This document shows, piece by piece, positions 1-36,300 of a DNA stretch of 64,000 bases (the stretch's first letter is position 1; every line of letters starts with the position of its first letter). Below the pieces are notes generated by a model. That model saw only the letters and a list, made by a program, of their open reading frames with translations. It was not told the origin of the DNA and searched no databases. Source of the DNA: Cinnamomum chago (Eukaryota; Streptophyta; Magnoliopsida; Laurales; Lauraceae); the NCBI GenBank assembly GCA_038049695.1, contig CP142458.1, positions 47,397,001-47,461,000 of the forward strand, given 5' to 3'. A program made the translations under genes and the position numbers.

Positions 1-220
1 ATGTGAGTAAAAAGTAAATCTAACATGATAAAATTATAATCAAATAATTTTGAAAACCATGATATGTAACTAAAATGGTGTATGAAGACAAAATCAATTG
101 ATCACAAATAAACATTGCATTTTAAGAAATGTAACTATGAAAGAACAAAATACAAATGTAGTTATGGCCAACAAAATGATTTAACTAAAAAGGATAGGTT
201 GGTCAAGGAGGTTCAAGAAA
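1..220 (-). mobile_element. S3 element: 3' noncoding part, cut by the window edge
   Basis: Read on the minus strand this follows the gag stop of S3 and matches the start of the noncoding region after gag in S1 (from 34817). It begins the same hairpin series: arms GACCAAC and GTTGGYC around a TAGTTAAATC loop. No coding frame is seen. The rest of S3 lies beyond position 1. Confidence 0.7.
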
Positions 221-400
221 TTAAGGTTTGTCTAAGTATCTAACTTTAGGAATTCACCTAAGGTCTTGAGAGTGTTGATCTTTGAGGCCTAGTTTAGAAG
301 TCCCACTAACTTAGGAGATTTGACTTGATAAATTTTTAATTTGAACTCATCACCATGATATTTAGATTTGACTAAATTTAGCTTAGATTGGTGATTACTC
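221..400 (-). pseudogene. 3' end of a Sirevirus-like Gag (S3)
   Basis: The minus strand aligns without large gaps to the last 60 or so codons of the S1 gag (about 34645-34816), including the tryptic stretch close to the end (DLR.IPKVRYLDKP-like) and the stop codon at 221-223. The proximal part of this gag is missing: at about 400 the similarity stops and a Copia Gag of another family (P) begins. The other end of S3, with its LTR and first 17 gag codons, is at 41174-43145. A deletion that removed the middle of the S3 gag together with the 3' half of P explains the junction. Boundary is good to about 10 bp. Confidence 0.65.
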
Positions 401-403
401 TTA

Positions 404-4445: not shown

Positions 4446-6338
4446 TGAAAGTCCACGAGGATCCTAACCCTAGAGGGGGGGGGGTGAATAGGGTGAGCTA
4501 CAATTGTGAACAATTTAGACCAATTTTAACTTCTTAACAAAAACTAGTCACATGTGATGATTAAACAAACAATATGCGGAAGCTTAAACAAAAACAATCA
4601 CCACATAGCAATCACCACAACACAATATTTATAGTGGTTCGGCCAACGTGCCTACATCCACTACCGGCTTGTGAATCCAACACCCCACCGGATTTCCACT
4701 ATTTATGCTTTTTACTAGGCTAAGCAATAACCCTTACAATGTTGCTTTTCAAGGCTAAACAACAACCTCTCAATGTGCTTTTAGAGGCTAAGCAATAACC
4801 TTTACAAAATGCTTTTCTTAGGCTAAGCAATAACCTTACACAATGCTTTTCTTAGGCTAAGCAATAACCTTTACAAATCAATATTTCTCTAAGAAAGTGT
4901 TTACTCAACACTCTAAGAGATTACAATTTAAGCTCAAATAAATTGCCTCTAAATAGGCGGATATGAAAATGAAAATCCTAACTCACACAAACACTCAATG
5001 AATGCAAAGATGTATGCTTATGAAGTGTGTGTGTGAAAACTTCAATCAAGTTTAAAAGTAAGCTCAATCAATTTATGCTTAATGCAATTTGAAAGTTTAA
5101 GGCACAAAAAGATATGATTGAAGTTCTATGCAAATCACTTGAACAATTACACACTTGTGAATGATATGAAAATCTAAAGATCACAAGTTGTATGAAAGTG
5201 TTTAAGCCTAATCAAGTGATGCATGTGCAATGTTGTTTTCAAAACTAATTAGTTTAACTAAAGTTTAAATGTATGAAAACAACAAAGGAAGTTTCAACCA
5301 AGTGAAAGAATCATGCAATGAAAGAAATCAAAGATTTAGGCTAAGCATGATTAAGAAAGATTAAAACAAAACTTGGGTTGAAATCAAAGTGATGAATCCA
5401 ATCTTGAATATCAAAGATGAAAGGAAGAAAGGATTCAACACATCATTGTTATCATGCTTGAAATCATTTTCCAAAGATTCAAATAAAGCACATAACAAAT
5501 GATTAATTAAAAGTAAAACTTACTTGGAGATTTAACTTAGTTGATCCAAGCTTAAGATTTACTTAATGACCCCTTGATGTCTCTTAGATCATCCCCTTTG
5601 TCTTCTCTCAAAGCTCCTCAAAGAAGGCTTCAAAAATCTCCAACCATTGACAAAGGAAAGAACTCATTTATAACCCCAAAACAGCTCAGCGGCTAGTTTA
5701 CCCGGTTAACCCCATGACAGGCCGGTTAACCGGGTAAGCCCAACGATCAGAAAAAGAGCCGTTGAGCTCAGGATCCCGGTTAACATCCAGTGTGGCCGGT
5801 TGACCGGCCACACATGGCCGGTTGACCGGGCCTGCAGCCCCATTTTTCCCATTTTTGGGTTTTTGAAGATTTTCTTTGGGGATCTTTTGGGCCATTAAAA
5901 TCAAGCTTTTTCACATGTTTTAAATCATTCAAAGATGTATAAAAACTTGAAACATGGAAAAGCAAAAATGTTTTCAATCTTTTAAAAACAAGAACTAGCT
6001 TGATTTTCAAAACTTTCTTTTCAAATAAATTGAATTTTTGAAAGTTTTCTGAGGGGACATTTGGGGTCATTGAATCAAGCTTTAAAACAAGTTTTAAATC
6101 AATCTTAGAGTTTTAAAACCAAAGGCATGCTTGATTCAATAAAACTCATTTCAAAACTAAATGTATCCAAGATAAAGAACATATCATGCATGATTGAATA
6201 CTTTTTCAACTCTTGAAAGCAATGCATGTCTAAATCAAGATTTCAAGTGTTTTAAAATCAAAGCATGTGTGAAAATGCGAATGATGAATAAAATGATTAT
6301 GCATCCATCAAATTGCAATCTATACAAAATTCCTAACA
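4446..6338 (-). mobile_element. S4: solo LTR, Sirevirus-like, minus strand
   Basis: 1893 bp, bounded by TG...CA (minus strand starts TGTTAGGAATTTTG and ends GGACTTTCA) and a perfect 5-bp TSD, so it is a solo LTR. Minus-strand order: array of CCGGTTAACC / CCGGTTGACC palindromes (5702-5829), TATA (5666-5672), tandem GGTTATTGCTTAGCC units (about 4725-4875), CCGGTAGTGGATGTAGGC block, then a C tract (G run at about 4476-4485 on the plus strand) and the LTR end. About as long as the S1 LTRs. Confidence 0.85.
5666..5829 (-). promoter_or_regulatory. S4 promoter: GTTAAC palindrome array and TATA box
   Basis: Palindromes begin at 5702, 5722, 5776, 5796 and 5818, spaced 20, 54, 20 and 22 bp. The core is CCGGTTAACC, with CCGGTTGACCGG in the last two. 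An AACGG site (minus strand, about 5755-5765) lies between the groups. TATAAAT on the minus strand at 5666-5672. Confidence 0.6.
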
Positions 6339-6343
6339 GATTA

Positions 6344-6690
6344 TACCTTTGGAGCTTAGTAGTGCTCTAATGGAGAAGTTGTGACTTTCTTTGATGATGA
6401 AACACTTTCACTAATCAAATCAGAATCTCCAACACCTTTTGATCTTCCACGCTATGACCCATATCAGATTCTCTTTTCTCAAGAAAATGTTGGAATCTAC
6501 AAGAGAAAACCCTAAAGGAAACTAGAAGAGAACTTAAAGAGGGTGAGAGAGAGTGGTGTGCAACTCTTGCACAATCTTAGCGCCTTGGGCGTGAATCCCA
6601 ATGCATGGAATAGTGTTGGACGTCCAAGGCCTCTTCTCCCCTTTTTATATCACTTAAGCAACCTCCTCTTACTAATTTAAATAGAAGTCT
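6344..6690 (-). mobile_element. P 5' LTR, segment 2
   Basis: Inverted copy of roughly 40630-40970. The matching words include the block with GATCTTCCACGCTATGACCC and its plus-strand counterpart GGGTCATAGCGTGGAAGATC. Bounded left by the S4 TSD and right by the S0 TSD. No gene. Confidence 0.8.
6686..6690. repeat. TSD of S0 (AGTCT), left copy; right copy 14195-14199
   Basis: AGTCT directly before TGTTAGGGAT (6691) and directly after ..CTTACA (14194). Confidence 0.92.
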
Positions 6691-7085
6691 TGTTAGGGAT
6701 TTTGTAGATTACAATTTGATGGATGCATTTTCATTCTAGCATCATTTGATTCACACACACTTGCATTGTTTTAAATAAACTTGAAATCTTATTTTATTCA
6801 TTCATTGCTTTTAAGATTTGTAAAAGTATTGATTTATGCATGATTTGTCTTTTTATCTTGGATGCATTTGATTTAGAAAAGAGTTTTTAAGAAATCAAGC
6901 AAGCCTTTGTTTTAAAAGTTTTGAATCTTTTTAGGCTTTTTATGTCATGTTTTAAAAACCATTAGAATCTTTAAAACATGTTTTCCAAGCTTGATTTAGT
7001 GGCCAAAAGGTCCCCCAAAGAAATAACTTTGAAATGGCAAAAGTTGGATTTTTTGTCAAAAGGGGGGTTGTCCCGGCAGTGTCGC

Positions 7086-7250
7086 CGGTCGACCGAGATA
7101 CAGGTCTCGGTCGACCGAGACAACTGCAGGCAAAATTTGCCTGGGAGCACCAACGGTCAGAAATATGACCGTTGTGTGTTCTCGGTCGACCGAGGCCTGT
7201 GTGCCGGTCGACCGAGGACTAGCCGTTGGACATTTTTGGCTATAAATATG
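7086..7250 (+). promoter_or_regulatory. S0 5' LTR promoter: CGGTCGACCG array, MSA site, TATA box
   Basis: CGGTCGACCG at 7086, 7108, 7183 and 7205: two pairs, each 22 bp apart. Between the pairs lies an inverted repeat AACGGTCAG...TGACCGTT (about 7153-7175). TAGCCGTTGGA at 7220-7230 is TCCAACGGCTA on the minus strand, an exact match to the plant MSA consensus YCYAACGGYYA bound by three-repeat MYB proteins. The TATAAATA box follows at 7241. A cell-cycle response is inferred, not shown. Confidence 0.6.
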
Positions 7251-7410
7251 AGTTCTTTCCCTTGCCAAAAGTTGGGAATTTTAACCCCTCCTTGAGAGGA
7301 TTTGAGGCATATCAAAAGGGAAAAGAAACAAGGGATGAAGGGGATGATTAGGAAAGCTAAAGCTTGGATTAATGAAGTTAAACCACCAAGTAGGCTCTTC
7401 CTTCCTTAAT

Positions 7411-8004
7411 CATATGCTTTCATGCTTTTGTTTTATTTTTGGTAAATCATTTCTAGCATGTTAAACTATGTTTGTGTTGTGTCCTTAACATGTTTTATGT
7501 TTTGAGTTGATTTATTGTTTTGGATACAACACCATATGATTCAATACAAGTAGTACTTAACTTTGGTAAATCTAAGTAGATCATGTTAATGGAAAAATCT
7601 TTGGAATTATATGTAACATGATCCATATACTTGGTTGAATCTTTGGTTGTTGTTTTCCATCATAAGAAAATCACTTTCAAAACTATCTTATGTTTTGGAT
7701 TCAACTTCTTTACAAATCATATGTTTTCATGTTTTGTTTTATCATTGGTAAATCTTTGTAGCATGTTAATCTATGATTTGTTGTATCCTTAGCATGTTTT
7801 ATATTTTGAATAGATCTATTGTTTTGGATACATCACCATTGATTCATCAAAGTAGTACTTTATCTTTGGTAAATCTAAGTAGATCATGTTAATGAAATAT
7901 GTAACATGATTCATATACTTTGTTGAATCTTTGGTTGTTGTTTTCCATCATAAGAAAATCTCTTTCAAATGTATCTTATGTTTTGGATTCAACATCATTA
8001 CAAA
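7411..8004 (+). repeat. direct duplication of about 300 bp in the S0 5' LTR
   Basis: 7411-7717 and 7718-8004 share long runs, such as the GGTAAATCTAAGTAGATCATG and TTTGGTTGTTGTTTTCCATC words. The same duplication is in the 3' LTR (12698-13003 and 13004-13290), so it predates insertion. Confidence 0.8.
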
Positions 8005-8516
8005 TCATATGTGTATTATTGTTTTAAAGTTTTACAACTTGCTTTGCTTTGATTAGGTATATCATATTCAAGTTGTATTTTATAATTACATATGATTTGT
8101 CCCCTAATTTCAATCAAATCTATTTTTATGTTTTGAGCTTCATTGATGATTTGATTGACATCCCTATGCATCACATGTTTAGAGCTAATCCATTTCATAC
8201 AACTTGTGTAACTTTGATATCATTAACAAGTTGTTACTTTTAACATGTGATTGCATCACTTCCTCAATCATAAATGTTTTATGAGCTAAAACTTTCAAAA
8301 GCCTTAGGCATACATTTATGAGCTTTCATTTTCAAAATGATTGAGGACCACACACACACACTTCATATACTTTCATCTTTGCATTCATAGTGTGAGTGTG
8401 TATTAGTTTTTCACTTCCATATCCGCCTATTTAAGAGGCAATGTAATGAGCTTAATTGAATCTCCATCAAGTGTATCAAAGACACTATCTTAGTGAGATA
8501 ACCAACCTTTTGGTTG

Positions 8517-8655
8517 AAGAGGTTATTGCTTAGCCTATAAAAGCATAGTGTATAGGTTGATGTTAAGCCTTGAAAAACATCAATGTAAAGGTTATTGCTA
8601 AGCCTTGGAAAGCATATTGTAAAGGTTATTGCTTAGCCTATTGAAAAGCATAAAT
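8517..8655 (+). repeat. tandem GGTTATTGCTTAGCC units in the LTR
   Basis: Four imperfect units of about 33-36 bp, each containing AAAGGTTATTGCTTAGCCT and ending in AAAAGCAT. The same family of units is at about 13804-13940, 21485-21615, 38440-38575 and 15740-15810, and inverted at 4725-4875 and 41580-41755. Confidence 0.8.
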
Positions 8656-8908
8656 AGTGGAAATCCGGTGGGGTGTTGGTTCACAAGCCGGTAGTGGATG
8701 CAGGCATTGAGGCCGAACCACTATAAATACTTGTGTGATGGTGCTTGCTTTGTGGTGATTGTTTTCTTTAAGCTTCCGCATTTTGTTTGATAATCATCAC
8801 TTGTGACTAGTTTGTTTTAAAGAAGTTAAAAGATTAAAAATTGGTCATAAAAGAAGCTCACCCTATTCCCCCCCCCCTCTAGGGTTCGGATCCCCATGGA
8901 CTTACAAG

Positions 8909-8920
8909 TGGTATCAGAGC
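8909..8920 (+). other. S0 primer-binding site (initiator Met tRNA)
   Basis: TGGTATCAGAGC, two bases after the 5' LTR. Confidence 0.9.
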
Positions 8921-9180
8921 GGGTTACTCCATTTTAGGGCTTAAAAACTCGGAGTTGATCCTTGCTAGATTTGAACCCTAGTGTTGTGTTTATTGCATAT
9001 CTTTATGATGATTTCCACTTTGTTTGAAAATGTTTTTCCCTAGCCTCCTTGCACCACTCTAAGACTTTTCTAAGTTATATCTTGTAGAGTTGGTGAGTCC
9101 TCAAAGTGATTTCTCAAGGACACATTTTCAAGACCTTAGGTGTATTTTCAAAGGTAGAGTATTTGAGTAACCTTAAGGCC
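8921..9180 (+). other. S0 leader
   Basis: Short noncoding leader. It already holds one hairpin of the array type: arms CACCACTCTA (9052-9061) and TAGAGTTGGTG (9085-9095) around TAAGTTATATCT. No reading frame of note. Confidence 0.5.
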
Positions 9181-11420
9181 TTGATACCCCTAGACCAACC
9201 TATGCTTTTTAGTTATATCTTTTTGTTGGTCATGTTACATTTGCATTTTGTTTCTTTATAGTCACATCTTTTAAAATGCAATGTTTCTATGTGATCATTT
9301 GATTTTGTCTTCATGAACGTTTAAGTTATATCTCATGGTTTTCAAAATCCTTTGGTTGCATTACTTACATGATGGATTTGCATTTTGTTCATATAGTTAT
9401 ATCTCTTGTAGTGCATATCTATTCATGATCAATTGATTGTGATTTCAAATGCTTTCATAGCTAGTTTTTCATGATCAATTGATGTTGGAAAATCATTTGA
9501 TGTTTTTCATAGTTAGATCCTTTTTGGAAATCAAATGATTTGAAGCATTTTAGTTTTCCATTGATTTTCAAGTTATATCTTTTGATATGGAAAATTTGTA
9601 AGTGTCTATTGTTTTTACAAATTGAAAACTTTACAATAGTACACTTCTTGTTTTTCAAAATCACTTGCTCTTAATTCTATAAATGATTCTTTGTTGGAAT
9701 TTCATACATTGAAGTGATTTGAAAAACTTTGGAAAATGTTCTAAGCTTTATTGGTTGTATTCATAGAAACATTTTCCTTGAATTTATTTCCTTGTGCTTA
9801 ATTATGATTACATCATTTGAAAGGAAATAATTTTTACAAACAATTTGCATCTTTGCTCATGTAGTTATATTCCTTTTATGCAAATTGATTTTGTTGTCTT
9901 ACATTGCATGGTTGGATATGGTTTCATTGATTTGCATGTTTGTGCCTATTTTGGTATATAGTTTCATTAATACAAATTAATGAGTGTTTATGTGCTTTAT
10001 AGTAAAATCTTGTATTTGAGCTTTTTAAGTACATATGTGATTTTATGTGCTAAGTTCATTTGGTTTAAACCTCATATCCATTTTTCCATTGCATTGTAAG
10101 CTTAGTACATTTGCTAAGAGTGGAGATGTTACATGATTGCTTAATGGATCATTTTAGATGAATTGGAATTAAACCATTGTTCTTAATAGGTATATCTATT
10201 TATGTGGTCCATCTTCATCTTTATGCAATCCATGTTGTCCCTCTAACTTCATACCTTCTTTGGCTTGCTTAGTTATACTCTTTATTGATGATATGGTATG
10301 AGTTAGATCTTGAGTGTTGATTGATCCTCTCTATGCAAATGTCAAATTGTTCTATGTATGGTTGTGATCTTAGTTATATTTGTTGAAACCATACTAGAAC
10401 TCAAATCCATCCTCTATGCTTTATAGTCATTTCTATTTGGATGGTTATGATGTTGATTCATGTGTATTTTCTAAGTGTTTTCATTCTTATACATGTTTCA
10501 ACTTCATAGTAGTGATCTTGATCATATGAAACTCTTTGAAATCCATTCCTCATATTTCTATATGTTTGATGGACATCTTAGATGTTGAATTCATATGATT
10601 TTGACACTTTGTAAATTGCATGCATTTCAAAGTTATATCCTTTTGCATTGCAATTTATCTTGTCCATCACCATGCTCTATAGTTATATCTTTAATAGTGA
10701 TGAATATGCATTTATGATGCTTGATGGAATTTTGTCACATTCTTGCTCTTTATCATGTTATCAAATTCAATTGGATTCAATTGGTATATTGTGTGATTGA
10801 TTTGATTTCTTGTGAATGTGATAAAACTTGTGTGCATTCGATTGAACTTGATAAGTAATATGATTGTTCCATGTCACACACCATTAGCATCATAATGCTC
10901 ATGTTGCCACCTCTCTTGCTCATATAGGTATATCTCATGACCACCATGTTTATGTGTTCATAATATTGGTTGGTTATTAGTTGAGGTTGGCTTCATGCTT
11001 GAATTTCATTTCACTCATCTTGCACTTTAATAGTCATATTTATTGATTGAATGAAATGAGTTCAAGATTTTCATAGCATATGCTTTCCATAGTTAGATTA
11101 TTTGATGCTATGATTAATAAACCCCATTGCATCATGGATAGCTCTAATTTGGATTTCTCATAATAGTTATACTTTTAAATCCATTTTAGAGTGATTGATT
11201 TAATAGTCATATCCTAAATCTCAATTGGTATTCTTTGTTTGTCCAATTGATATCCATGATTGCTTTTCTCATTAGACCTAGCTCTCTTTTGGTAATTTGA
11301 TCATATTGTGCTTTATAGTTAAATGAATCTAATCCTTTCTTTGAAGTTGACCCTCACTTGGTTAAACCATCTTCTTCTTGTACCTAATAGTTAAATCTTT
11401 GTCAAGAGTTTGACAAAAGG
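9052..11420 (+). repeat. hairpin array with a common loop (S0 interior)
   Basis: About 20 degenerate copies of (A/T)TAGTTATATCT, each at or near the middle of a short inverted repeat whose arms are unique. Clear arm pairs: 9193-9199/9225-9231, 9241-9248/9273-9281, 9301-9307/9343-9349, 9491-9501/9530-9540, 9554-9561/9587-9594, 9785-9793/9831-9839, 9841-9850/9878-9887, 10243-10255/10295-10306, 10356-10363/10387-10394, 10407-10412/10439-10444, 10613-10620/10649-10656, 10665-10670/10697-10702, 11006-11013/11052-11059, 11072-11079/11105-11112 and 11142-11155/11178-11191. Arms are 6-14 bp. No long reading frame. A homologous array is in S1. Function unknown. Confidence 0.7.
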
Positions 11421-11429
11421 AGAGAATGG

Positions 11430-11998
11430 ATTGAGGGGGAGTGTAAACCTTCATAAGAAGTATTAGTTTTGATCAAATTTACCCTTGGATTGCCTTTGAG
11501 CCCTTAGAGACTACTACCTCACATGATAGCCTGTTACGTATTTCATTTTCGATTTCATTTGTTAACAGGTGCTACTAAAGGTATTTTCCTTATTTCATGT
11601 GTGTAGGTACCTTTGCAATTTAATGTCAAAGGGGGAGAAATTATGCAAGTTCTCAAAAGGGTGAAGAGAAGTCCAAGCTTCCTAAGGGGAGGTTTTTGTA
11701 TGATCTTCTACAAGGGGAGAGAATACATACCTTGCCAAAGGGAGAAAGCGGCATGGTCAAAGGGGGAGAGCAAATAGAAGAAACAAAGCTTGGAGCTAAA
11801 GAATATGCTTGGCTAAAGAAAGAAAGATTGAAGAATGTTCAAGCACCAAGCATCATGAAGAATGAAGCCCAAGAGCCCAAGCTAAGAAGAGAAGCATCCA
11901 AGAAGATTTCAAGCCTTGTCCAGCTGAGGGGGAGCTGAAGACTAAGTGTGTAATTTCAGTGGTGAGTATGTTTGCCATCAAATTGCAAAGGGGGAGAT
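11430..11998 (+). other. S0 3' interior with repeated polypurine tracts
   Basis: Runs such as GAGGGGGAGTG, AAAGGGGGAGA, AAGGGGAGG and GAGGGGGAGCTG recur several times, the last (AAAGGGGGAGAT, 11987-11998) touching the 3' LTR and serving as the primer for plus-strand synthesis. Multiple polypurine tracts before the 3' LTR are known in Sireviruses. A short open frame at 11696-11938 has a relative in S1 (36806-37054), but the two differ in frame along their length, so coding is not supported. Confidence 0.65.
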
Positions 11999-14194
11999 TG
12001 TTAGGGATTTTGTAGATTGCAATTTGATGGATGCATTTTCATTCTAGCATCACTTGATTCACACACACTTGCATTGTTTTAAATAAACTTGAAATCTTAT
12101 TTTCTTCATGCATTGCTTTTAAGATTTGTAAAAGTATTGATTTATGCATGATTTGTCTTTTTATCTTGGATGCATTTGATTTAGAAAAGAGTTTTCAAGA
12201 AATCAAGCAAGCCTTTGTTTTAAAAGTTTTGAATCTTTTTAGGCTTTTTATGTCATGTTTTAAAAACCATTAGAATCTTTAAAACATGTTTTCCAAGCTT
12301 GATTTAGTGGTCAAAAGGTCCCCCAAAGAAATAACTTTGAAATGGCAAAAGTTGGATTTTTTGTCAAAAGGGGGGTTGTCCCGACAGTGTCGCCGGTCGA
12401 CCGAGACAACTGCAGGCAAAATTTGCCTGGGAGCACCAACGGTCAGAAATATGACCGTTGTGTGTTCTCAGTCGACCGAGGCCTGTGTGCCGGTCGACCG
12501 AGGACTAGCCGTTGGACATTTTTGGCTATAAATATGAGTTCTTTCCCTTGCCAAAAGTTGGGAATTTTTAACCCCTCCTTGAGAGGATTTGAGGCATATC
12601 AAAAGGGAAAAGAACCAAGGGATGAAGGGGATGATTAGGAAAGCTAAAGCTTGGATTAATGAAGTTAAACCACCAAGTAGGCTCTTCCTTCCTTAATCAT
12701 ATGTTTTCATGCTTTTGTTTTATTTTTGGTAAATCATTTCTAGCATGTTAAACTATGTTTGTGTTGTGTCCTTAACATGTTTTATGTTTTGAGTTGATTT
12801 ATTGTTTTGGATACAACACCATATGATTCAATACAAGTAGTACTTAACTTTGGTAAATCTAAGTAGATCATGTTAATGGAAAAATCTTTGGAATTATATG
12901 TAACATGATCCATATACTTGGTTGAATCTTTGGTTGTTGTTTTCCATCATAAGAAAATCACTTTCAAAACTATCTTATGTTTTGGATTCAACTTCTTTAC
13001 AAATCATATGTTTTCATGTTTTGTTTTATCATTGGTAAATCTTTGTAGCATGTTAATCTATGATTTGTTGTATCCTTAGCATGTTTTATATTTTGAATAG
13101 ATCTATTGTTTTGGATACATCACCATTGATTCATCAAAGTAGTACTTTATCTTTGGTAAATCTAAGTAGATCATGTTAATGAAATATGTAACATGATTCA
13201 TATACTTTGTTGAATCTTTGGTTGTTGTTTTCCATCATAAGAAAATCTCTTTCAAATGTATCTTATGTTTTGGATTCAACATCATTACAAATCATATGTG
13301 TATTATTGTTTTAAAGTTTTACAACTTGCTTTGCTTTGATTAGGTATATCATATTCAAGTTGTATTTTATAATTACATATGATTTGTCCCCTAATTTCAA
13401 TCAAATCTATTTTTATGTTTTGAGCTTCATTGATGATTTGATTGACATCCCTATGCATCACATGTTTAGAGCTAATCCATTTCATACAACTTGTGTAACT
13501 TTGATATCATTAACAAGTTGTTACTTTTAACATGTGATTGCATCACTTCCTCAATCATAAATGTTTTATGAGCTAAAACTTTCAAAAGCCTTAGGCATAC
13601 ATTTATGAGCTTTCATTTTCAAAATGATTGAGGACCACACACACACACTTCATATACTTTCATCTTTGCATTCATAGTGTGAGTGTGTATTAGTTTTTCA
13701 CTTCCATATCCGCCTATTTAAGAGGCAATGTAATGAGCTTAATTGAATCTCCATCAAGTGTATTAAAGACACTATCTTAGTGAGATAACCAACCTTTTGG
13801 TTGAAGAGGTTATTGCTTAGCCTATAAAAGCATAGTGTATAGGTTGATGTTAAGCCTTGAAAAACATCAATGTAAAGGCTATTGCTAAGCCTTGGAAAGC
13901 ATATTGTAAAGGTTATTGCTTAGCCTATTGAAAAGCATAAATAGTGGAAATCCGGTGGGGTGTTGGTTCACAAGCCGGTAGTGGATGTAGGCATTGAGGC
14001 CGAACCACTATAAATACTTGTGTGATGGTGCTTGCTTTGTGGTGATTGTTTTCTTTAAGCTTCCGCATTTTGTTTGATAATCATCACTTGTGACTAGTTT
14101 GTTTTAAAGAAGTTAAAAGATTTAAAATTGGTCATAAAAGAAGCTCACCCTATTCACCCCCCCCCTCTAGGGTTCGGATCCCCATGGACTTACA
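11999..14194 (+). mobile_element. S0 3' LTR
   Basis: 2196 bp. Same layout as the 5' LTR: palindromes CGGTCGACCG at 12394, a degenerate one (CAGTCGACCG) at 12469 and a perfect one at 12491; MSA-type site TAGCCGTTGGA at 12506-12516; TATA at 12527; duplicated segment 12698-13290; tandem units about 13804-13940; C tract about 14157-14164. It lacks one 22-bp palindrome unit present at 7086-7107 of the 5' LTR. Confidence 0.9.
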
Positions 14195-14199
14195 AGTCT

Positions 14200-15087: not shown

Positions 15088-15874
15088 GTGGCTTTTTGTT
15101 TGGAAAAAGTTGCTGAAACTCAAGAGACTTTTGAGGCCAAGGACTTGCAACTTTTCAAGAGCATCTTTGAAGGGATTTTGAAGCCATTCCAATGATTCAA
15201 CCTTTGATCTTCAAATGGGTGTGCTTTCTCTAATCCTAAGTATTTCAAAATCATGTTTTGTTTCACCATCTTTGATTTACTTCAATGCATGATTAACAAG
15301 ATGCTTTTCTAATTAAAATGTTGTCCTTCATAACATGCTTAGTTCTTTAGAAATCTCATGAGTTTTATGAATGCAACATATTGTCTTTGTTACACATGAT
15401 ATAGTTTTCTTGTTTCAAAATTAACTTGCTAGACTTTAGTATATCTTCTTTGAAAACAAGTTAGTTCACATTGTTAAACTGATGTGTTTTACAATCCACT
15501 CTTTCTCAAACATATGATTATCATCTTTGCATCATTCAAGATTGTATCTTTTCAAAAAGAGAAAGAGTAATTTCTAGTAAATGCATTATTCATAAACTTT
15601 GTCATTCATATGCATGCTTCTAGAAATTGAGGTTTTCACTTTCTATTTAACCTATTTAGAGGCACTCTTTTGCACTTATATAGTTCTCTTAATCCATGCA
15701 TTCATAGGCATATTTCCTAAGAGAAAAGTTCTAGTTGTTAAGGTTTATGCTTAGCCTTGAAAAGCATATGTTGTAAAGGTTTATGTTTAGCCTTGAAAAA
15801 CATAGTGATGAATTGTAAGGTTTGAGGTGATCCAAAACCTTAAGTGACTTAGTGAAATCCGGTAGGTGTACCAG

Positions 15875-18366: not shown

Positions 18367-20196
18367 ACTTGGGCGTACAGTAGGTCCGGGAAAGACTTGA
18401 TTTTTCTCCCCTTTTTCCTTTCCTTCCAACACATAAACAACTAACATTTTTCTTCCATAATCACTTAAAATCTTCATCAAAACTCCAATGAAAAATTAAA
18501 TTTAAACACCTCCTTTCTTCTCATTTCACAATAAACAAAGGGAAGAATCTCCAATATACACAAAAGTCCACTTGAGTCAGAAATCTAGAGATAAATCAAG
18601 ACTATTGATTCACATTTCCTTAACCATAGATGATTTAGCAAAACTCATTAAATGAGCATCTATTTCACATCAATGCAAGCTAGTAAACATAAAAATGGGT
18701 GGAGAAACCAACCCCATTCATTACAAAATCATATGAACAAACTTTGACTAAATGAAATGTATAATTTCCAAGAGATTTAACAAGAGAGAAAACAACCATT
18801 AATATGCATTTTCGAAATCAATAGAAATATGACAAGAAGCATGTGTGGAAACATATATCACATTATCAAGAACAAGTAATAAAACTTAGGATTTTCTCAT
18901 AAAATTTTGATAACATTCAAACCATCCATTCATCCACTTGCCTTGGGTTCCAAGCTAGCAAACCAAGCCTCTAATCACCTCTCAAGCTCAAGATCAACAA
19001 TCTCTACAAAACCCCCAAAACAAACCCTAAAATGGGTCAAACAATGAAAGACAAGGAATGGGCTCAAACCAAGCTAGGAAATAGAACTTAAGGGAAAGCC
19101 ATTGCACATAAAAGGAAAATAGGAAGGAGTCCTTACCTCTAGAGTCATGAATCAACAAGAAAAAGCTTGCAATAGGGGCTGCCCACCTTGGTTTCCCACG
19201 AAAATGGTGTCAAACAAGAGAGGAGATGAAGGAGAAGAAGTTGTCGGAGTTCCCTCGTCGAATTGGTGGCTTGGAGGCTCCATTAGAGCAAGAGAAATGG
19301 AAGAAATGAAGGAGAGGGGCTGCTGGCACTGTAGCTGGAGAGTTGCAGTCGTTGGAGTGGAGAAAATGAGGGAGAAGAGAGTGGAGAGACATCTTATAAT
19401 GGGTGGGTATGGGCCCCACCACACTTAAAACTTGCCAAGGGTAAAACATCTATTTGTGGGCCTCGGATGCGATCGACGAAGAAAATAAAAATGTTTATCA
19501 TAAAATCTAGTTTTCAAAAAGTATAATTTTGGCATGGTTCTGAGATCTCGAAATTTGGGTCCAGATTCAATGTGAAAAGACCGATTTTGCCCTCCGGGCT
19601 GGAAAAACTGATTTTCGGAGCTTCGAATGGGTACGGAGTGAACATGAAAGTTGTAGAGGTTAACAAAATAAGTCAAATGAGGCTAAAACAAGAATTATCA
19701 GGAATTTCGAATAACCTCCCAATCACGCGCAAAGTTACTAAAAGAACCCCCAAAGGGTCCCACTAATCACAAAGGCACTCAAAATTCCCCAAAACTAATG
19801 AAAAACCATTCTAGCTCACAAACTCAACTCAAAAAATACTAATCCCACTAAAAGAAACTAATCCACAAGAAAAACAACACTAATCCAAGAGATTAGGGGT
19901 CGGGTTCTCACAGAGTGGATGTAGGCAATTTGGCTGAACCACTATAAATGTGCTTGTCATGGTGATTGATCTTTTGCTCTCTTTACATGAATGATTTACT
20001 TTTGGTTGAATGAAGATTGTAGTTGGTGATTCCTTGTGTATACTTATCTTAGAGATTCCTATCTATCACAAGATAATTAATCTTCATCAAATCTTAATTG
20101 ACTTAAAAGTTAAAAGAATTCAAATTGGTCTAGGTTTTTAGAGCTCATCCTATTCACCCCCCCCCCTCTAGGATTCGGTCTTGGTCTTTCAATTTT

Positions 20197-21879
20197 AGCA
20201 TCATTTGAATTTACACACATGCATTGTTTTAGAAAAACTTGAAATCTTGATTTACACATGCATTATTTGAAATATTGATTTATGCATGTTTTGATTTTTA
20301 ACTTGGATGCATTTTTAATTGAAAAGAAGTTTTATTAATCAAGCAAGCCTATGAGTTTTAAATCTTTCCAGTCTTTTTAGGCTTTTTATGTTTCATGTTT
20401 TTAAACCTCTTAGTTTGATTTAAAACATGATTCCAAGCTTGATTCAGTGGCCCAAAAGTCCCCACATGAAAATACTTTGAAATATACAAGTTTAGAGGAT
20501 TTTGGTCGTAGGCCCGGGTCGACCCGCAGTGGGCTCGGTCGACCGGCCACACTACGCGGTCGACCGGGGCAAAGAGCCGTTGGCTCTTCCAACGGTCATT
20601 TTTCTGACCGTTTGTAGCCAGGTCGACCGGGCTCTGTACCAGGTCGACTGGGCACTCGCAGAAACCCACTTTTTGGTTATAAAATAAAGTTCATTCCCTT
20701 ACCAAAGGGAGAGATTTTTAAGCCTTCTTTAAGGTGTTTGGAGACAAGACAAAGGGGATGATTTAAAAGAGACCAAGGGGTCATTTGGGGAGCTAAAGCT
20801 TGGATTAATGAAGTTAAATTTCTAAGTAAGCTTTACCTTTCTTAATCATATGTTATATGCTTTGTTTAAATTATTGGTAAATGAATTTTAGCATTATAAC
20901 TATGATGTGTTGAATCCATTCTTATTTTAATCTTTGACCTAAGTTGGATTGGATTCTTCACTTTGATTTCAAACCAAGTTTTGTTTTAAAATCTTCATTA
21001 ATCATGCTTAGCCTAAATCTTTGATTTCTTTTATATCATGATTCATTTACTTGGTTGAAACTTTATTTGTTGTTTTCATTCATTTAAACCTTAGTCAAAT
21101 TTGTTTAGTTTTGAAAACAACATTGTATATACATCACATGTTATAAGTTAGTCATTTTCATACAACTTGTGAGTCTTTGATTTTCATATCATTAACAAGA
21201 TGATATTCATACATGTGATTTGCATTAAACTTCAATCAAATCTTTTATGTGCCTTAAACTTTGAAATGCTTTAAGCATATATTAATTATGCTTTGTTTTT
21301 AACTTGATTGAAGTTATCACACACACACACATCATGAGCATACATCTTTGCATTCATTTAGTGTTTGTGTGAGTTAGTCTTTCACTTTCATATCCGCCTA
21401 TTTTAGAGGCAAATATATTGAGCTTAAATTGTATCTCTTTGAGTGTTTTTGTAGACACTTCTTTAAGAGAAATCTTTTTCTTGCAAAGGTTATTGCTTAG
21501 CCTAAGAAAAGCATTGTGTAAAGGTTATTGCTTAGCCTAGAAAAGGATCTTGTAAAGGTTGTTGTTTAGCCTAGAAAAACAACTTGTAAAGGTTATTGCT
21601 TAGCCTATTGAAAAGCATAGATAGTGGAAATCCGGTGGGGTGATTAGATCACAAGCCGGTAGTGGATGTAGGCATTGAGGCCGAACCACTATAAATCATT
21701 GTGTGATGGTGAATGCGTTGTGGTGACTCCTTTTAGCTTCCGCATTTTGTTTGTTTATCATCACTTGTGACTAGTTTATTTTTAAGAAGTTAAAATTGGT
21801 CTAAATTGGTCACATATTGTAGCTCACCCTATTCACCACCCCCCCCCCCCCCTCTAGGGTTAGGATCCCAGGACTTTCA
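20197..21879 (+). mobile_element. S1 5' LTR, main segment
   Basis: Continues 14495-14541 after S2. Palindromes at 20516, 20536, 20557, 20620 and 20641; TATA at 20678; tandem GGTTATTGCTTAGCC units at about 21485-21615; CCGGTAGTGGATGTAGGC block near 21656; C tract about 21839-21852; ends GGACTTTCA. Very similar to the 3' LTR at 37087-38828. Confidence 0.88.
20516..20686 (+). promoter_or_regulatory. S1 promoter: GTCGAC palindromes, MSA site, TATA box
   Basis: Three sites at 20516, 20536 and 20557 (spacing 20 and 21), then TCCAACGGTCA at 20588-20598, an exact MSA match on the plus strand and part of an inverted repeat with TGACCGTTT, then two sites at 20620 and 20641 (21 bp). TATAAAATA at 20678-20686. 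Confidence 0.6.
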
Positions 21880-21881
21880 TT

Positions 21882-21893
21882 TGGTATCAGAGC
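21882..21893 (+). other. S1 primer-binding site (initiator Met tRNA)
   Basis: TGGTATCAGAGC, two bases after the 5' LTR end at 21879. Confidence 0.9.
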
Positions 21894-21977
21894 CTCGTGC
21901 TCTATATTAGGATCAAGTGTTTGGAACTCTTGATTAGGTGTAAAAACCTAGAGTCAAAACCCTAGTGTCGTGCTTTC

Positions 21978-22512
21978 ATGAAAATCATTAGAATGGATTC
22001 CACTATGATAGATTGTTTAGATTCTTGTGTAGATTCTTCTAGACCCCTCCTTCATCCTTCTATTGGAGATTCAAACCCTCAAATTAATGATTCTCAATTT
22101 GATTTAAAAGAAGAAGAAAATGATTATAATGAAGATGACCTTCAACAAGCCTATGAGGAATTATATACTTTGTCCTTAGAGCTTGATAAGAAAAATAAAA
22201 GATTAAGAGAAGAATCTAAAAATCTAAACAAAGAATTAGTTTCTTCTAAATATGAACTTAGAGAAAAAGAAGAAGTTATACAATGCTTAGACTCTAAGTT
22301 TATCATCTCTTTACATAACCTATCTAATATTAAAGAAGATCTAAATGAATTAAAGATAGGAAATGATGATCTTAAAAAGGAAAATTCAAAACTAAGAGAT
22401 CAATTACAAAGGCAAGACAAAAACATTAACAACCTAGAATCCAAGTTGACGATTTCTAAGAAAAATTTATCTAATTCTCAAAATAAGATAAAAACTCTAG
22501 AACTTGGATCTA
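21978..22512 (+). CDS. gag: S1 Gag, N-terminal part (interrupted by A)
   Basis: From ATG at 21978 the frame is open for 178 codons up to the A insertion at 22513-22518. The protein is acidic at first, then strongly coiled-coil: heptad-rich Leu/Glu/Lys segments such as ELYTLSLELDKKNKRL and a later DNLESKL-like run. Sirevirus Gags are known to carry such N-terminal coiled coils. The reading frame is preserved across the A insertion when one TSD copy is counted, and resumes at 33907. Gag would form the particle and bind RNA. S3 has the same start (ATG at 41223, minus strand). Confidence 0.75.
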
Positions 22513-22517
22513 ATGTT
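22513..22517. repeat. TSD of A (ATGTT), left copy; right copy 33902-33906
   Basis: ATGTT directly before TGTAAGACC (22518) and directly after GTCGCGACA (33901). Confidence 0.95.
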
Positions 22518-23879
22518 TGTAAGACCCCGACCCGAGTGAACCCGATTAGTGCTAATTAAGTTGTGTGTTAGTGCTAAGCTTGATTAGTGATTCCTGGTTA
22601 AGATGGGTTTGGATTAGCTTTGAATTTGGTTTTGGGCTGATTCGATCGTCTTGTTTTGCTTTGGTAACTTGTGGGGCCCTTTGGGGGTTCTCTTTTCGGC
22701 TTTGTATTTTCTCGAGGAATTTCCCGATTTATTGTGAATTGTGTTTTTGGCCCGTTGCATGCATCTTGTAGATCTCGACAACTTTCATGTTGATCCCGTG
22801 TTCATTCGAGACCTCGAAAACCGATTTCATAGCCTAGAGGGCAAGACAGTCATTTCACACCAAACCTGTACCCAAAACTCGATATTCTCGAAAACCGTGA
22901 AACATGTAATTTTTGGAAACTAGATATTTCGGCGACCATTTATTGCTTCTTCTTCGAATTCATTAGGAGCCCCGTTAGAGATGATCTCAGCCATTCAAGT
23001 CTCTTAAGTTGTGGGACCCAACCCCTCAAGTGTTAACAAAAGGGGAGCCATTGTCTCATTCACCTCATTCTTCATTGCTCCAGCACACATTTGAGTCTAG
23101 GGTTTTCTTCTTCTTCTTCTTGCTTCTTCGTCTCCAAGCCACATCAAGAGTTCATAGATCAAGCATTGGAACTCACCAATCACTCCCTCATCTCACAAGC
23201 TTTCCATTGATACTATTTGTGGAGGGATTCATCAACATTGAGATCTTCTTTGAACTAGTCCTCTTCATTTGAGGGTCATCCAAGTAAGTGATCATTTTCA
23301 TCTCTTAGATTAGTGTTCCTCTAGCCATTGAGATTCTACATGTGCATTATTGGAAGCTCTTTCATTTTCAAGCTTGGTGTAACCCATTTTAGGGTTGTTT
23401 TGGGGATTTTTGATTGTAGCTTGGCTTTGAGCAATAGAGGTGATCAAAGACTTGTTTTCAGCTAGCTTGGACTAGAGGCAAGTGAATGATTGGATGTTTT
23501 AAATTTTGAAATGAGTTGGTATAGTCTTTATGGATTTTCCATACTTTCATTTAATGAGGTTTGTTTGAAATAAATGCTCATGATGTATTTTGATAGTTTC
23601 ATTCAAGGTTTTATAAACATGTTAGTAGAGCATTTATTGTCATTGTGATAGCCTAGATGAATGTTTGTGAAATGGTTTACTTCCCTTTTTCTTTGCATTG
23701 GACTTGACATGGAAGAAGTAATGGAGAGCACTCATAATAGGGATTTGGAGAAGTGTAAAGAGGTGCATTGGAGGAGCTATTAGCTCAATGTTATTGTAAG
23801 GACTTTGTGGATGTGAGGAAGATGGTTTTGAGGAGGAAAATGACTCAAAACGGAGCACAGTGAGCATTTTCGTAACTAG

Positions 23880-24290
23880 TGGTCAGCTCACGGTTAGCCA
23901 GCGGCTAACCGCCGAGCCCATCGGCGGCTAACCGCCAGCTAACCGCGCACCGCGGTGACTTTTCCAGAGAGCATCGTTTTCCCCCTTAAAACATGGTCAG
24001 CCTCACGGTTAGCCAGCGGCTAACCGCCGAACATATCGGCGGCTAACCGCTAGCCAACCGCCCACTCTCGGTTACCTTTCCAGAGAGCATCAGAAATCTC
24101 CCCTGAAATCCGGTCAGCTCCACGGTTACCCAGCGGCTAACCGCCAGGTAACCGCGTTTGGGCGGCCAGCCTTCCAGTAAGTTGTATTTCCTGCAGCACA
24201 GTGGCGGTCAGCTGGGCGGTCACTCAGCGGCTAGCCGCATGCCCCAGCGGCGGCTAACCGCCAGGTGACCCCAGGTGACCGAAATTCCCC
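23880..24290 (+). promoter_or_regulatory. A LTR array of GCGGCTAACCGC inverted repeats
   Basis: Three to four blocks separated by about 115 bp, each with GGTTAGCC, then GCGGCTAACCGC twice, 23 bp apart (23901 and 23924; 24016 and 24039). The words are CpG-rich in an AT-rich LTR. The 3' LTR copy is at 32049-32459 with few differences. Arrays of the same word occur in L0, T2 and T3. Confidence 0.65.
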
Positions 24291-25233
24291 AGATTTCAGA
24301 GAATTCCTCATTCGAGCCAGTTTCTATGGTTCGATCGAGCACTGAGCTTTATCAGTCGAAGGAAATCCTTGGGGCATTGTACAAGGCCTCCGTGAAAGAA
24401 ACCACATCACAAATATGTCATTCGAAATTTGGAAAATCGTAGAAGTGCATAAGGAGCCCGGAATGTCTCAAAACTCAAAGAGTACCAAGTAAGGGCTATA
24501 GTAGACATACGAGACCCCTATTCACTTAGTTGGATTTCTAAATTGATATTTTGCCCGAATTTCATTATAGTGCATTGTTTCACCTCATTCCCAGGAATTT
24601 CATCGCATGACTTGTTTTCTCGAAAGCTTTGAGGCTACAATAGTGACAGTGAATTGTCCCGAAATGTATTGCCCAACATGGAAAGACAGTGTGCCCTTGA
24701 GCACCCCCGTTTTACCCGTTTATTTACTGTACTTGAACACTTGATATGTCTCGATTGGTTTTAACCTATGAGTCGGCATCACTAAGCTTGGATACCTTGT
24801 CAGTCTGATCCACTGACTTGGAAATCCCTCTCCCGTCCCGCCAGCTGCAGTTTGGATCCCGATGCCCGGTCTAATACCGTGGTCCCGTCCCGACACCCGG
24901 TTCGCTACCGTGGTCCCGTTCCTGTATAATTATATTGTATATATGTATACGTTGTTTCTCCTCACCTTGTGTGACTGAGATCAACGTCCCGTGATACTGT
25001 TGTCACTTTAGTGACAGAGGACTTAGCTCTATGTGATTGCCACCTTGTTAGTTCCCGAATCCTTGGATACCTGACATGTCTTATATTGTTTACTCGTTTT
25101 ATAGCAATGATTTACCTGTTTTATGAGAATTATTGCTCAATCAGATTTACATGCTTTCCAAGAGATTTCTTACATTATATATTGTTGTATCCTTGTTTTC
25201 TCTTGCCAGACCGTCGTGTCTGATCCTTTGCTT

Positions 25234-25335
25234 TGGTACTCAGGTCCCGTTGCCGGTTTCCTCGAGGAGGAGCCGGAGGAGGCAGTAGGCGAGCTGCAAC
25301 CTCTAGTTGAGTGGCGTGCTGACGATGTCATGTAG
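25234..25335 (+). CDS. short acidic frame inside the A LTR, function unknown
   Basis: Thirty-three codons plus TAG, rich in Glu (EEEPEEAVGE, then VEW.ADDV before the stop). Frames of exactly the same length and stop position occur in B (54159-54260) and T3 (56268-56369), with mostly conservative changes; the 3' LTR copy is 33403-33504. A pyrimidine-rich TTGTTTTCTCTTGCCAG just upstream (ending 25209) looks like a splice acceptor, so it could be a 3' exon. No good start codon is at hand. T1 and T2 lack it. It may instead be conserved RNA or DNA sequence. Confidence 0.35.
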   Translation, partial: WYSGPVAGFLEEEPEEAVGELQPLVEWRADDVM

Positions 25336-25735
25336 ACATCGGGTTGCCAAGAGGCGTAACATTTTGGGAGATCTACTTAACCATTCTTTTGGGTTAATAT
25401 TTTGTTTATATTGGCCTTTGTTGGCCTCTATTTTTGGGGAATGTACATAATTGATATTTTGTCTAACTTTAACAACTATTGGGAAACTTGCTATATATAT
25501 CATTGCTCATTCTGATACAGTATTTACACTTGATGTCATTGCTTCATGACTAGAGATAGTCTACTATTTGATTTACTACACGCTTCCGCATTTAACAGAA
25601 ATATTCAATTATGGTTATGATATCCTCACCGCGGACACATGTGGGAAATTAAATAAGATGTATATTGTGGATGTAGATCCTAAACATCATTATTAGTCCC
25701 GATCCCGGATCTCTCGGTCCGGGGTCGCGACAGAC

Positions 25736-25747
25736 TGGTATCAGAGC
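25736..25747 (+). other. A primer-binding site (initiator Met tRNA)
   Basis: TGGTATCAGAGC, three bases after the 5' LTR end. Confidence 0.92.
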
Positions 25748-25889
25748 GAGACGTGTTTCAAGCAATTAAAAGAAACTAGAAATCCTAAGGACGTGGCGAG
25801 GATCCGTTAGATCTTTCGTTAGCTAGTATCGTGTGAGCAATGTGTGACCCTTTATATTATTATGTGCTAACAAATTGTTTTGCAGTATC

Positions 25890-30675: not shown

Positions 30676-30686
30676 GGGGTGGAGGA
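30674..30686 (+). other. A polypurine tract
   Basis: AAGGGGTGGAGGA directly before the 3' LTR; it overlaps the pol stop codon. B has the same at 52606-52618. Confidence 0.85.
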
Positions 30687-33600: not shown

Positions 33601-33901
33601 TTTTGGGGAATGTACATAATTGATATTTTGTCTAACTTTAACAACTATTGGGAAACTTGCTATATATATCATTGCTCATTCTGATACAGTATTTACACTT
33701 GATGTCATTGCTTCATGACTAGAGATAGTCTACTATTTGATTTACTACACGCTTCCGCATTTAACAGAAATATTCAATTATGGTTATGATATCCTCACCG
33801 CGGACACCTGTGGGAAATTAAATAAGATGTATATTGTGGATGTAGATCCTAAACATCATTATTAGTCCCGATCCCGGATCTCTCGGTCCGGGGTCGCGAC
33901 A
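30687..33901 (+). mobile_element. A 3' LTR
   Basis: 3215 bp, same length as the 5' LTR with about 25 substitutions, most of them C/T or G/A. Contains the same palindrome array (32049-32459) and acidic frame (33403-33504). Confidence 0.93.
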
Positions 33902-33906
33902 ATGTT

Positions 33907-34816
33907 ATTAATGAACTTAAATTTGATTTAAAACTTGCTCATGAAGAACTAATCAAATATAAGGAAATGGAAAATGAACTATTAAAAGTTAAAAATGAAA
34001 ATTCAATTCTTATAAACCAAATCACTCAACTTGAAAGCTATAAACAAAAGTATGAGTGCAGGTTTACCCAAGGTGAAGAGATATTTGAAAAGTTATTTAA
34101 ATTGGGTAAATCTCAAAGAGATAGGACGGGTCTTGGATTTGATTGGAATATTTCACATGACCCTAAATTCACCAACACATTTGTGAAAGGTGAGTCCTCT
34201 TTCTCTAGCACTCTTTCTCCTTTGCCCAAATCTAAATGTATTTATTGTGGCATTTTCAGGGCATTTTAGGTTTGAGTGCAAACTAAGAAGAAGCCATGTG
34301 TCTAAACCCATCTTTGAACCCAAAAAGGTAGAATCTAAATCTATGAAGGGTAAGACACTAAAAATCAAAGAAGACTCCAAAAAGATTAAACAAGCTAAAT
34401 CAATTAAAATGGAGTCTCCTAAGATAGATTCTAAAAAGTTTAAACAAGTTAAACCAAGTTTAAAAGAATCTATCAACAAAAAGCTTCTCAACCTATCTCC
34501 CTTAAATCAACACATGAAAGAACTTTTGAAGAAAGTTGCTAAGTTAAATTTAAAATTCAAAAGTCAAATAAAGGGAGAATATAAGAAGAAAAGAAAAATG
34601 AACCAATCCCCTAAGAAACAAACTCACCAACCTCAAAAGACTAATCACCAATCTAAGCTAAATTTAGTCAAATCTAAATATCATGGTGATAAGTTCAAAT
34701 TGAAAATTTATCAAGTCAAATCTCCTATAGTTGGTGGTACTCCTAAACTAGACCTCAAGGATCAACCCTCTCAAGACCTTAGGTGGATTCCTAAAGTTAG
34801 ATACTTAGACAAACCT
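33907..34816 (+). pseudogene. gag: S1 Gag, C-terminal part, frameshifted in its zinc knuckle
   Basis: Resumes the coiled-coil frame from 22512 and runs to about 34250. The CCHC knuckle is C-I-Y-C-G then, after a one-base insertion in a T run at about 34251-34255, S-G-H-F-R-F-E-C in the next frame (C-x2-C-x4-H-x4-C). The downstream frame stays open to TAA at 34816 and is Lys-rich (nucleic-acid binding type), ending RWIPKVRYLDKP, which resembles the GPK.WVPK end of Sirevirus Gags. Nothing like protease or RT follows. Confidence 0.75.
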
Positions 34817-36300
34817 TAAGGCTTTGAACCTCATTGACCAACCTATCCTTTATAGTTAAATCATATTGTTGGTCATGTTACATTTGCATTTTTGTTCCTT
34901 CTTAGTTACATTTCTTAAAATGCAATGTTTATTTGTGATCAATTGATTTTGTCTTCATACATCATTCTAGTTACATATCATGGTTTTCAAAATCATTTGA
35001 TTATAATTTCATCATGTTAGAATTGTTTTTTGCTCTTAGTTAGTTATATCTCTTGCATTCCATTTCTATACATGATCAATTGATTGTGATTTCAAAAGCT
35101 TTCTTAGCTAGATTATTCATGATCAATTCTTGTTATAAGCCATTTGCATATTTGCTTATTTAGTTATATTCTTTTTATATGCAAATGTCAATTGGTTCCA
35201 TGTATGGTTGTGATATTAGTTATATTTGTTGAAACCATACGAGTACCCAAATCCATCCTTTATGCTTTCTAGCCATTTTTTTAAAATGGATGGTTATGAT
35301 GTTGATTCATGTATACTCTCGAAGTGATGTCTTCCTTATACATGTTTCAACTTCATAGTAGTGATCTTGATCATATGAAACTCTTTGAAATTCATTCCTC
35401 GTATTTCTATATGTTTGATGGACATCTTAGTTGTTGAATTTATATGATTTTGACACTTTGAAAATTGCATGCATTACCTAGTTATACCCTTTTGCATTGC
35501 AATTTATTTTATTCATCACTATGCTCATTAGTTATATCATTATAAGTGATGAATATCCTTTTATGATGCTTGACGGAATTTTGTGTTTGTCACATCCTTT
35601 TTATTAATCATGTTGTCATATTCAATTGGTTTCATTTAATATAATTCTCGATTGATTTCATATCCAATTGATGTCTTATCTTGAGAATGTGATAGACCTT
35701 GTGTACATTGGATTGAACTTCATAGTCATATATTTTTGTTCCATGTCACATTTCATTAGCATCATAATTTTCATGTTTGCCACCTCTCTTGCTCATATAG
35801 GTAAATCTCATGACCACCATGTTTATGTATTCAAAATCTTGGTTGGTTATTAGTTGAGGTTGGCTTCATGTTTGAATTTCATTTCACTCATCTTGCACTT
35901 AATAGTCATATTAATGATTGAATGAAATGATTTCAAAAACCTTCATAGCATATGTTTTTCATAGTTAAATTGATTGATGCTATGTTTAGTAAACCCCATT
36001 TCATCATGGATAGCTCTAATTTGAATTTTTCATTATAGTTATATTTTTTACTCCATTTTAGAGTGATTGATTTTATAGACTTATCTTTGAATCTCAATTG
36101 GTATTCTTTTTTTTTTTTTCCAATTGGTATCCATGATTGCTTTTCTCATTGACCTTGCTCTCTTTTGGTAATTTGATCATATTGTGCTCTATAGTTAAAC
36201 ATGTCTAATCCTTTCCTTCAAGTTGACTCTCAATTGGTAAAACCATCTTCTTCTTGAACCAAATAGTTATATCTTTGTCAAAAGTCTGACAAAAGGAGAG
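34817..36300 (+). repeat. hairpin array with a common loop (S1)
   Basis: Homologous to 9190-11420 of S0. Loops near TAGTTATATCT are flanked by inverted arms, e.g. GACCAAC (34836-34842) with GTTGGTC (34868-34874), and ATTCATCACT/AGTGATGAAT (about 35515-35555). The latter is perfect over 10 bp here while the S0 counterpart pairs only over 6. Noncoding. Confidence 0.7.

Follow-up and report, generated by a model that had tools for sequence, protein, structure and literature searches.

In this study, we found that the non-coding interior of S0, an LTR element of the window (the whole 64-kb stretch of DNA that was analysed), carries a repeated structural module in which many of the hairpins share a common loop word while their arms differ, and this structure is well supported. 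The word resembles TAGTTATATCT and has 20 sense-strand sites with at most 2 mismatches between 8950 and 11500, spaced 40-292 nt apart (mean 122). We tentatively consider that the array is a repeated RNA module whose common loop docks the Gag of a helper element for packaging in trans. How helper proteins select LTR elements that encode no protein is an open question, and a loop word present about 20 times on interchangeable stems is a concrete and testable candidate for the signal. If this reading is true, packaging by dispersed signals would extend from viruses to plant retrotransposons.

Structure and classification of S0

The S0 element spans 6691-14194 (Table 1), and an alignment of its two LTRs shows 14 differences over 2195 sites, with 24 gap columns in addition. 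The interior measures 3.1 kb and its longest stop-free stretch is 104 of 1029 codons; degenerate coding sequence was ruled out as an explanation of the array, since stops occur throughout all six frames of the interior (66-84 per frame). The few LTR differences, the target duplication and the lack of a usable reading frame together indicate that S0 was moved by proteins made elsewhere, by which it would have been packaged and reverse-transcribed in trans. With so little LTR divergence, loss of genes after the insertion of S0 is excluded.

Table 1. Coordinates of the S0 element, its hairpins and the related arrays in the window. Hairpins are given as 5' arm / 3' arm.
Feature	Position	Strand	Remarks
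S0 5' LTR	6691..8906	+	starts TGTTAGGG, ends CTTACA; blastn self-comparison, sequence
S0 3' LTR	11999..14194	+	self-comparison, sequence
Target duplication AGTCT (5 bp)	6686-6690 and 14195-14199		outer sides of both LTRs
Primer binding site TGGTATCAGAGC	8909..8920	+	2 nt past 5' LTR; sequence; presumably initiator-tRNA-Met PBS
Five AGGGGGAG polypurine octamers	11434, 11630, 11761, 11927, 11989 (within 11434..11996)	+	
Hairpin array, 20 sense loop words (at most 2 mismatches)	9052..11420	+	S0 non-coding interior
CACCACTCTA / TAGAGTTGGTG	9052..9095	+	word at 9072; p 0.015; copy 2 keeps 3 of 10 pairs
GACCAAC / GTTGGTC	9193..9231	+	word at 9210; copy 2 arms identical
ACATTTGCATTTT / AAAATGCAATGT	9237..9284	+	word at 9259; copy 2 paired bases identical
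GATTTTG / CAAAATC	9301..9349	+	word at 9323; copy 2 arms identical
Hairpin	9368..9427	+	word at 9394; in copy 2, 9 pairs unaltered, 2 compensated and 2 broken
AAATCATTTGAT / ATCAAATGATTT	9490..9541	+	word at 9510
TTTTCCAT / ATGGAAAA	9554..9594	+	word at 9570
AAACAATTTGCAT / ATGCAAATTGATTT	9838..9891	+	word at 9862
TCTAACTTCATACC / GGTATGAGTTAGA	10242..10307	+	word (3 mismatches) at 10270
GTTCTATGTATGGTT / AACCATACTAGAAC	10349..10400	+	word at 10371
TAAATTGCATGCA / TGCATTGCAATTTA	10612..10657	+	word at 10630
CTTGAATTTCATTTCACTCA / TGAATGAAATGAGTTCAAG	10998..11066	+	word at 11031; T-A replaces the outer C-G in copy 2
TCATAGCAT / ATGCTATGA	11071..11113	+	word (3 mismatches) at 11090
CTCTAATTTGGATTT / AAATCCATTTTAGAG	11142..11191	+	word at 11164
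Second, diverged array (copy 2)	34637..36296	+	shares two collinear blocks with S0, at 76% and 89% identity
Third array piece, cut by window edge	1..402	-	91.5% to copy 2; stems p<0.05 at 2 of 4 word sites

The hallmarks of Sireviruses (Ty1/copia) given in the available text of PMC2829016 are clustered AGGGGGAG octamers before the 3' LTR, an AT/TG junction, an inverted repeat at the terminal PPT and CGG-CCG boxes in the LTR. All of these are found in S0: the last octamer joins the AT/TG of the 3' LTR (AAAGGGGGAGATTGTTAGG at 11987-12005), an inverted repeat read by eye surrounds the PPT/3' LTR junction (CCATCAAATTGCA before the PPT, TGCAATTTGATGG inside the LTR), and palindromic CGGTCGACCG CGG-CCG boxes occur four times in the S0 5' LTR (7086-7214) and twice in the LTR at 20187-21880, with none in the S0 interior. 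The octamers, the AT/TG junction, the inverted repeat and the boxes place S0 among Sirevirus derivatives, an assignment made from motifs, S0 having no coding region and copy 2 a gag-like remnant only; unlike Sireviruses, S0 lacks gag-pol. Judged by these motifs, S0 is a recently inserted, non-autonomous and protein-less Sirevirus derivative that is LARD-like, a context that the preliminary description does not name.

LARDs are placed with gypsy elements, and S0 differs from them as a derivative of Sireviruses. The likeness lies in the protein-less interior and may extend to the assumed mobilisation in trans and the well-conserved RNA secondary structure of LARDs such as Sukkula of the Triticeae, as described in the accessible part of PMC7215508, where no hairpin array with a common loop is mentioned. 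Of the properties by which LARDs are recognised, S0 has hairpins and arm conservation, seen in a way that does not separate the RNA from the DNA level, and it is a young insertion with a target duplication and without proteins of its own.

Related arrays in the window

The pattern of S0 is repeated in copy 2 and, more weakly, in the fragment at 1..402. The copy 2 array is located downstream of a gag-like remnant within an element at 20187-38828, the first LTR of which lacks the TGTTAGG start. A gypsy element (22518-33901) is nested in this element, whose polypurine region also holds a 205-bp foldback. Upstream of the array a reading frame of coiled-coil, zinc-knuckle-like character survives in two pieces, which we take to be a remnant of gag; a Pfam search of the frame gave coiled-coil-type matches only, below curated cut-offs. 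Relatives of the remnant comprised 8 hits to short proteins, three of them in bacterial-labelled records and one from a eukaryote transcriptome, and at a guess the bacterial-labelled ones may be plant contamination. The array therefore exists both beside a gag remnant (copy 2) and without one (S0), and a polypurine cluster forms its 3' limit in both.

The nested Ty3/gypsy element at 22518-33901 has 3.2-kb LTRs that are 99.2% identical, a gag frame of 426 aa, a pol in two frames (27016-29886 and 29917-30675) and a weak chromodomain match. For its gag, identity reaches 71% with proteins of Persea americana and 80% with another protein, over about 70% of the length, and a magnoliid host is therefore probable.

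Hairpin excess and the loop word

Inverted repeats with loops of 8-45 nt are far more frequent between 9000 and 11450 than in 15 dinucleotide shuffles, with 22 at a score of at least 8 (shuffle mean 5.1, maximum 9) and 14 at a score of at least 10 (mean 0.7, maximum 2). The non-overlapping repeats with a score of at least 7 number 28 in the same interval and cover 62% of the array. The loop contains the word (at most 2 mismatches) in 13 of these 28, against an expectation of 0.32 and a maximum of 3 in 200 trials. The hairpins that lack the word, 15 of 28 at 2 mismatches and 13 of 28 at 3, weigh against the docking model proposed below. Among repeats scoring at least 8, the word is fully inside the loop at 10 of the 20 S0 sites (rotation mean 3.1, p=0.0004), where 5-13 nt separate it from the 5' arm and 2-9 nt from the 3' arm; the corresponding count in copy 2 is 9 of 13 (rotation mean 1.7, p=0.0006).

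When the word is held fixed, a surrounding stem with a score of at least 6 exists at 17 of 20 sites, a score also attained by one in three positions of the region as a whole. Stems that beat shuffled flanks at p<0.05 were obtained at 12 of 20 sites in S0 (two printed as 0.050), 9 of 13 in copy 2 and 2 of 4 in the truncated third array. The other eight S0 sites, which likewise weigh against the docking model, are at 10000, 10187, 10300, 10424, 10680, 10925, 11204 and 11388, and those at 10187, 10300 and 10925 have no stem worth naming. The preliminary description had placed about 20 copies of the word at 9052..11420, at least 15 of them in loops. The coordinates and the number of copies are right, the figure of 15 is only loosely right, 12 being safer, and the claimed excess of hairpins withstood the comparison with shuffled sequence.

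A ranking of all 8-mers with at least 8 near-occurrences by their mean surrounding stem, which removes the reader's choice of word, put the word family at the top of 402 8-mers in S0 and of 183 in copy 2. The top 14 in each array are pieces or one-letter variants of the word, TTCAAAGT only in part. A tandem repeat was rejected, as Tandem Repeats Finder returned three short rows with a period of 8-10 in 8909-11997. The direct repeats that exist include five families with 3-5 copies of 20-27 nt, centred on the loop word, and 15 other families of two copies each that are mixed, some of them touching arms.

Pairing and conservation of the arms

The flanks of a word pair far better with each other than with the flanks of other words, with a mean of 7.83 for own versus 4.76 for swapped flanks in S0 and 8.54 versus 4.71 in copy 2 (p=0.00005 each); none of 20,000 permutations reached the observed own-arm mean, and random anchors in the same regions gave 5.36 (S0) and 4.93 (copy 2). 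The own arm was the best partner in 10 of 20 rows in S0 and 10 of 13 in copy 2, and admitting sites with up to 3 mismatches changed these counts to 10 of 27 and 12 of 20, with means of 7.37 and 7.92. This supports the earlier proposal of a common loop with arms specific to each hairpin.

In the two blocks that align S0 with copy 2 (9040-9483 and 10332-11420, S0 coordinates), S0 stems differ from copy 2 by 9.4% in arms, 20.7% in loops and 14.8% in the rest (rotation p 0.006), and copy 2 stems differ from S0 by 8.1%, 17.7% and 15.9%, respectively (rotation p 0.004), the conservation of arms being somewhat inflated because stems were chosen for complementarity in one copy. By block, with the second extended to 11661, the figures for arms, loops and rest of S0 stems are 11, 24 and 41% in the first and 7, 14 and 10% in the second, and the loop word itself differs by 13%. 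The S0 stems contribute 157 ungapped pairs to this comparison, of which 132 are the same in copy 2, 3 are compensated, 6 changed to G-U, 2 changed to A-C and 14 are broken. The preliminary description had named covariation between arms as a check: it is present across paralogous hairpins and weak between orthologous ones, where 3 compensated against 22 disturbed pairs weigh against the RNA model. A preference for G-U in the stem changes was not clear (10 G-U against 6 A-C in both stem sets). Pairing is retained mainly through absence of change, and compensation is thin at the divergence between S0 and copy 2.

In the LTRs, taken as a control, inverted repeats are likewise overrepresented, with 18-28% of arm positions changed versus 20-25% of the spacer; array arms are spared relative to loops, whereas LTR arms have no such protection. 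LTR hairpins, a few of which have word-like loops (8033-8077, 15409-15460), were left out as array members, since each LTR has 0-1 sense site and the arms are not conserved. The array could also be a functionless by-product of fold-back template switching during reverse transcription that spread with a dispersed repeat. Such an origin would fit the inverted-repeat excess with unconserved arms in the family LTRs and the fact that the multi-copy direct repeats are the stretches centred on the word, but the array arms are conserved relative to loops and rotated positions and paralogous arms differ yet pair, and we consider it improbable.

Orientation and accessibility of the word

Between 8909 and 11997, 27 sense and 10 antisense sites were found with at most 3 mismatches, and 8 of the 10 antisense matches are near-palindromic sense sites read in reverse. 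The 5' side of the word is rich in pyrimidines, and the word is followed by a short run of T. A weight matrix whose training set was the 33 sites of S0 and copy 2 gave 21, 15 and 4 sense sites in S0, copy 2 and the window-start fragment and 0 antisense sites; in seven stretches that are LTRs or resemble them it gave 0-1 sense site apiece.

The word is predicted to be unpaired more than other windows are, at 0.485 versus 0.278 in S0 and 0.619 versus 0.323 in copy 2. It is equally unpaired in the antisense fold, which weighs against a reading at the RNA level, and a folding signal of sense over antisense was sought and not obtained (mean hairpin z-scores -2.46 versus -2.74 in S0 and -3.18 versus -3.04 in copy 2). 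The RNA level is therefore suggested by the orientation of the word together with the context and life cycle of the element, not by energetics. The symmetry of pairing between the strands would suit a module of DNA, that is, a cruciform or arrayed protein sites, for instance with a cis-regulatory role, in the integrated element or its cDNA, and palindromic repeats proposed to be cis-regulatory are described for Sirevirus LTRs in the available texts of PMC2829016 and PMC10760457. However, the word is directional and lies between the arms rather than in them, the array is interior and outside the LTR, and the known boxes repeat their arm sequence where the array arms differ, which makes a DNA module quite improbable. 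The palindromes of maize Sirevirus LTRs resemble the array as structured repeats of a Sirevirus; they are a single palindrome, CACCGGACNNNGTCCGGTG, repeated in the LTR with its arms kept (PMC10760457, as far as its text is available), whereas in S0 the arms differ and the loop is kept.

Dimerisation of the RNA, which the preliminary description had offered among its possible roles, could proceed through kissing loops, as the near-palindromic word (AGTTATATCT against AGATATAACT) suggests. By mean loop-loop duplex energy, however, shuffled loops did as well in 14% of cases for S0 and 92% for copy 2, and common variants break the palindrome. Loop-loop pairing being no better than with shuffled loops, dimerisation by this route is not supported and appears extremely improbable.

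Possible function

Considering the above results, we propose a model in which the sense RNA of S0 would form a succession of short hairpins, roughly half of them presenting a common single-stranded word of about 11 nt with the consensus TAGTYA-N-ATYT, and in which the stem sequence would be immaterial so long as the arms pair. All these loops would bind one and the same protein, for which the Gag of an autonomous helper Sirevirus, with its zinc knuckle, is the most likely candidate, and many weak sites would jointly recruit S0 RNA to be packaged and reverse-transcribed in trans. For this model we observed the word, the hairpins, the association between them, the orientation, the conservation of the arms, the absence of coding sequence and the recent insertion; action as RNA, binding of a protein, the identity of that protein and packaging are steps that we infer.

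The Gag packaging model draws on an analogy with dispersed packaging signals. The core protein of HBV is reported, in the portion of PMC7612645 available, to use stem-loop packaging signals with a short motif in the loop, and the signals of HBV core, STNV and MS2 resemble the S0 array in having many stem-loops and a short recognition motif in the loop. Binding of the capsid protein was shown in those systems; for the S0 array, binding of Gag is a prediction. Packaging signals of retroelements are canonically near the 5' end, and, unlike these, the array extends through the interior as far as the polypurine cluster on the 3' side, which weighs against packaging. A stronger form of the model, that non-autonomous Sireviruses carry an expanded array of packaging hairpins, one loop word having been multiplied on freely evolving stems, and so out-compete the helper for Gag as parasites of a retrotransposon, seems to us doubtful.

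The structural evidence would fit equally well if the same RNA module were bound at its loop by a host RNA-binding protein, with a role in export, stability, a block of translation or shelter from silencing. Across its 33 sites the word is rich in T and has A, G and A at invariant positions, and many single-strand motifs of the host are similarly T-rich with fixed positions. No known RNA family was matched in Rfam at gathering score within the 64-kb window, which is neutral rather than contrary to a host protein. We regard this explanation as unlikely.

A source or decoy of host small RNAs, such as hairpin-derived siRNA or miRNA-like species, is very improbable: the stems, at about 7-17 bp, are on the short side for Dicer, and a source of small RNAs would call for the opposite arrangement, with the arms conserved and the loop free. 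Structured Sirevirus regions of maize do attract small RNAs according to the accessible text of PMC10760457, which speaks for such a role.

Such an array was not found described in the literature searched, which was covered by titles and abstract openings, so that its absence from print is not established. The part of PMC2829016 available lists no hairpin array of the interior as a motif, and the term 'hairpin' is absent from the main text. IMG/VR gave no exact match to two patterns of the element; 62 primer-site matches from it and one bacterial match had nothing in common with the window by BLAST, and plasmids gave no match.

Other repeats in the window

Within the S0 LTR, a segment of about 310-330 bp is tandemly duplicated at 7408-8026 with 85% identity, and parts of it correspond to gaps in the other four family LTRs compared. 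An LTR hairpin with the arms TGTTGTTTTCA / TGAAAACAACA occurs at 5231-5284, 21068-21122 and 42113-42170; its arms are identical in 3 of 5 family LTRs, 10 of 11 pairs are kept in a fourth and 5 of 11 in S0, and its loop varies. Long GC-rich inverted-repeat arrays around CGGTTAGCC are located at 32048-32430, 48399-48763 and 1267-1530.

Near-perfect foldbacks of 205 bp with CACTACACCAAAAATCGG ends lie at 36540-36744 and 60265-60469; they are identical and in opposite orientation, with apparent 3-bp duplications (GGA and ATA), and one of them is in the polypurine region of copy 2. P0001, P0003, P0014 and P0015 are retrotransposon-like proteins filed under Streptomyces, perhaps through plant contamination of bacterial assemblies.
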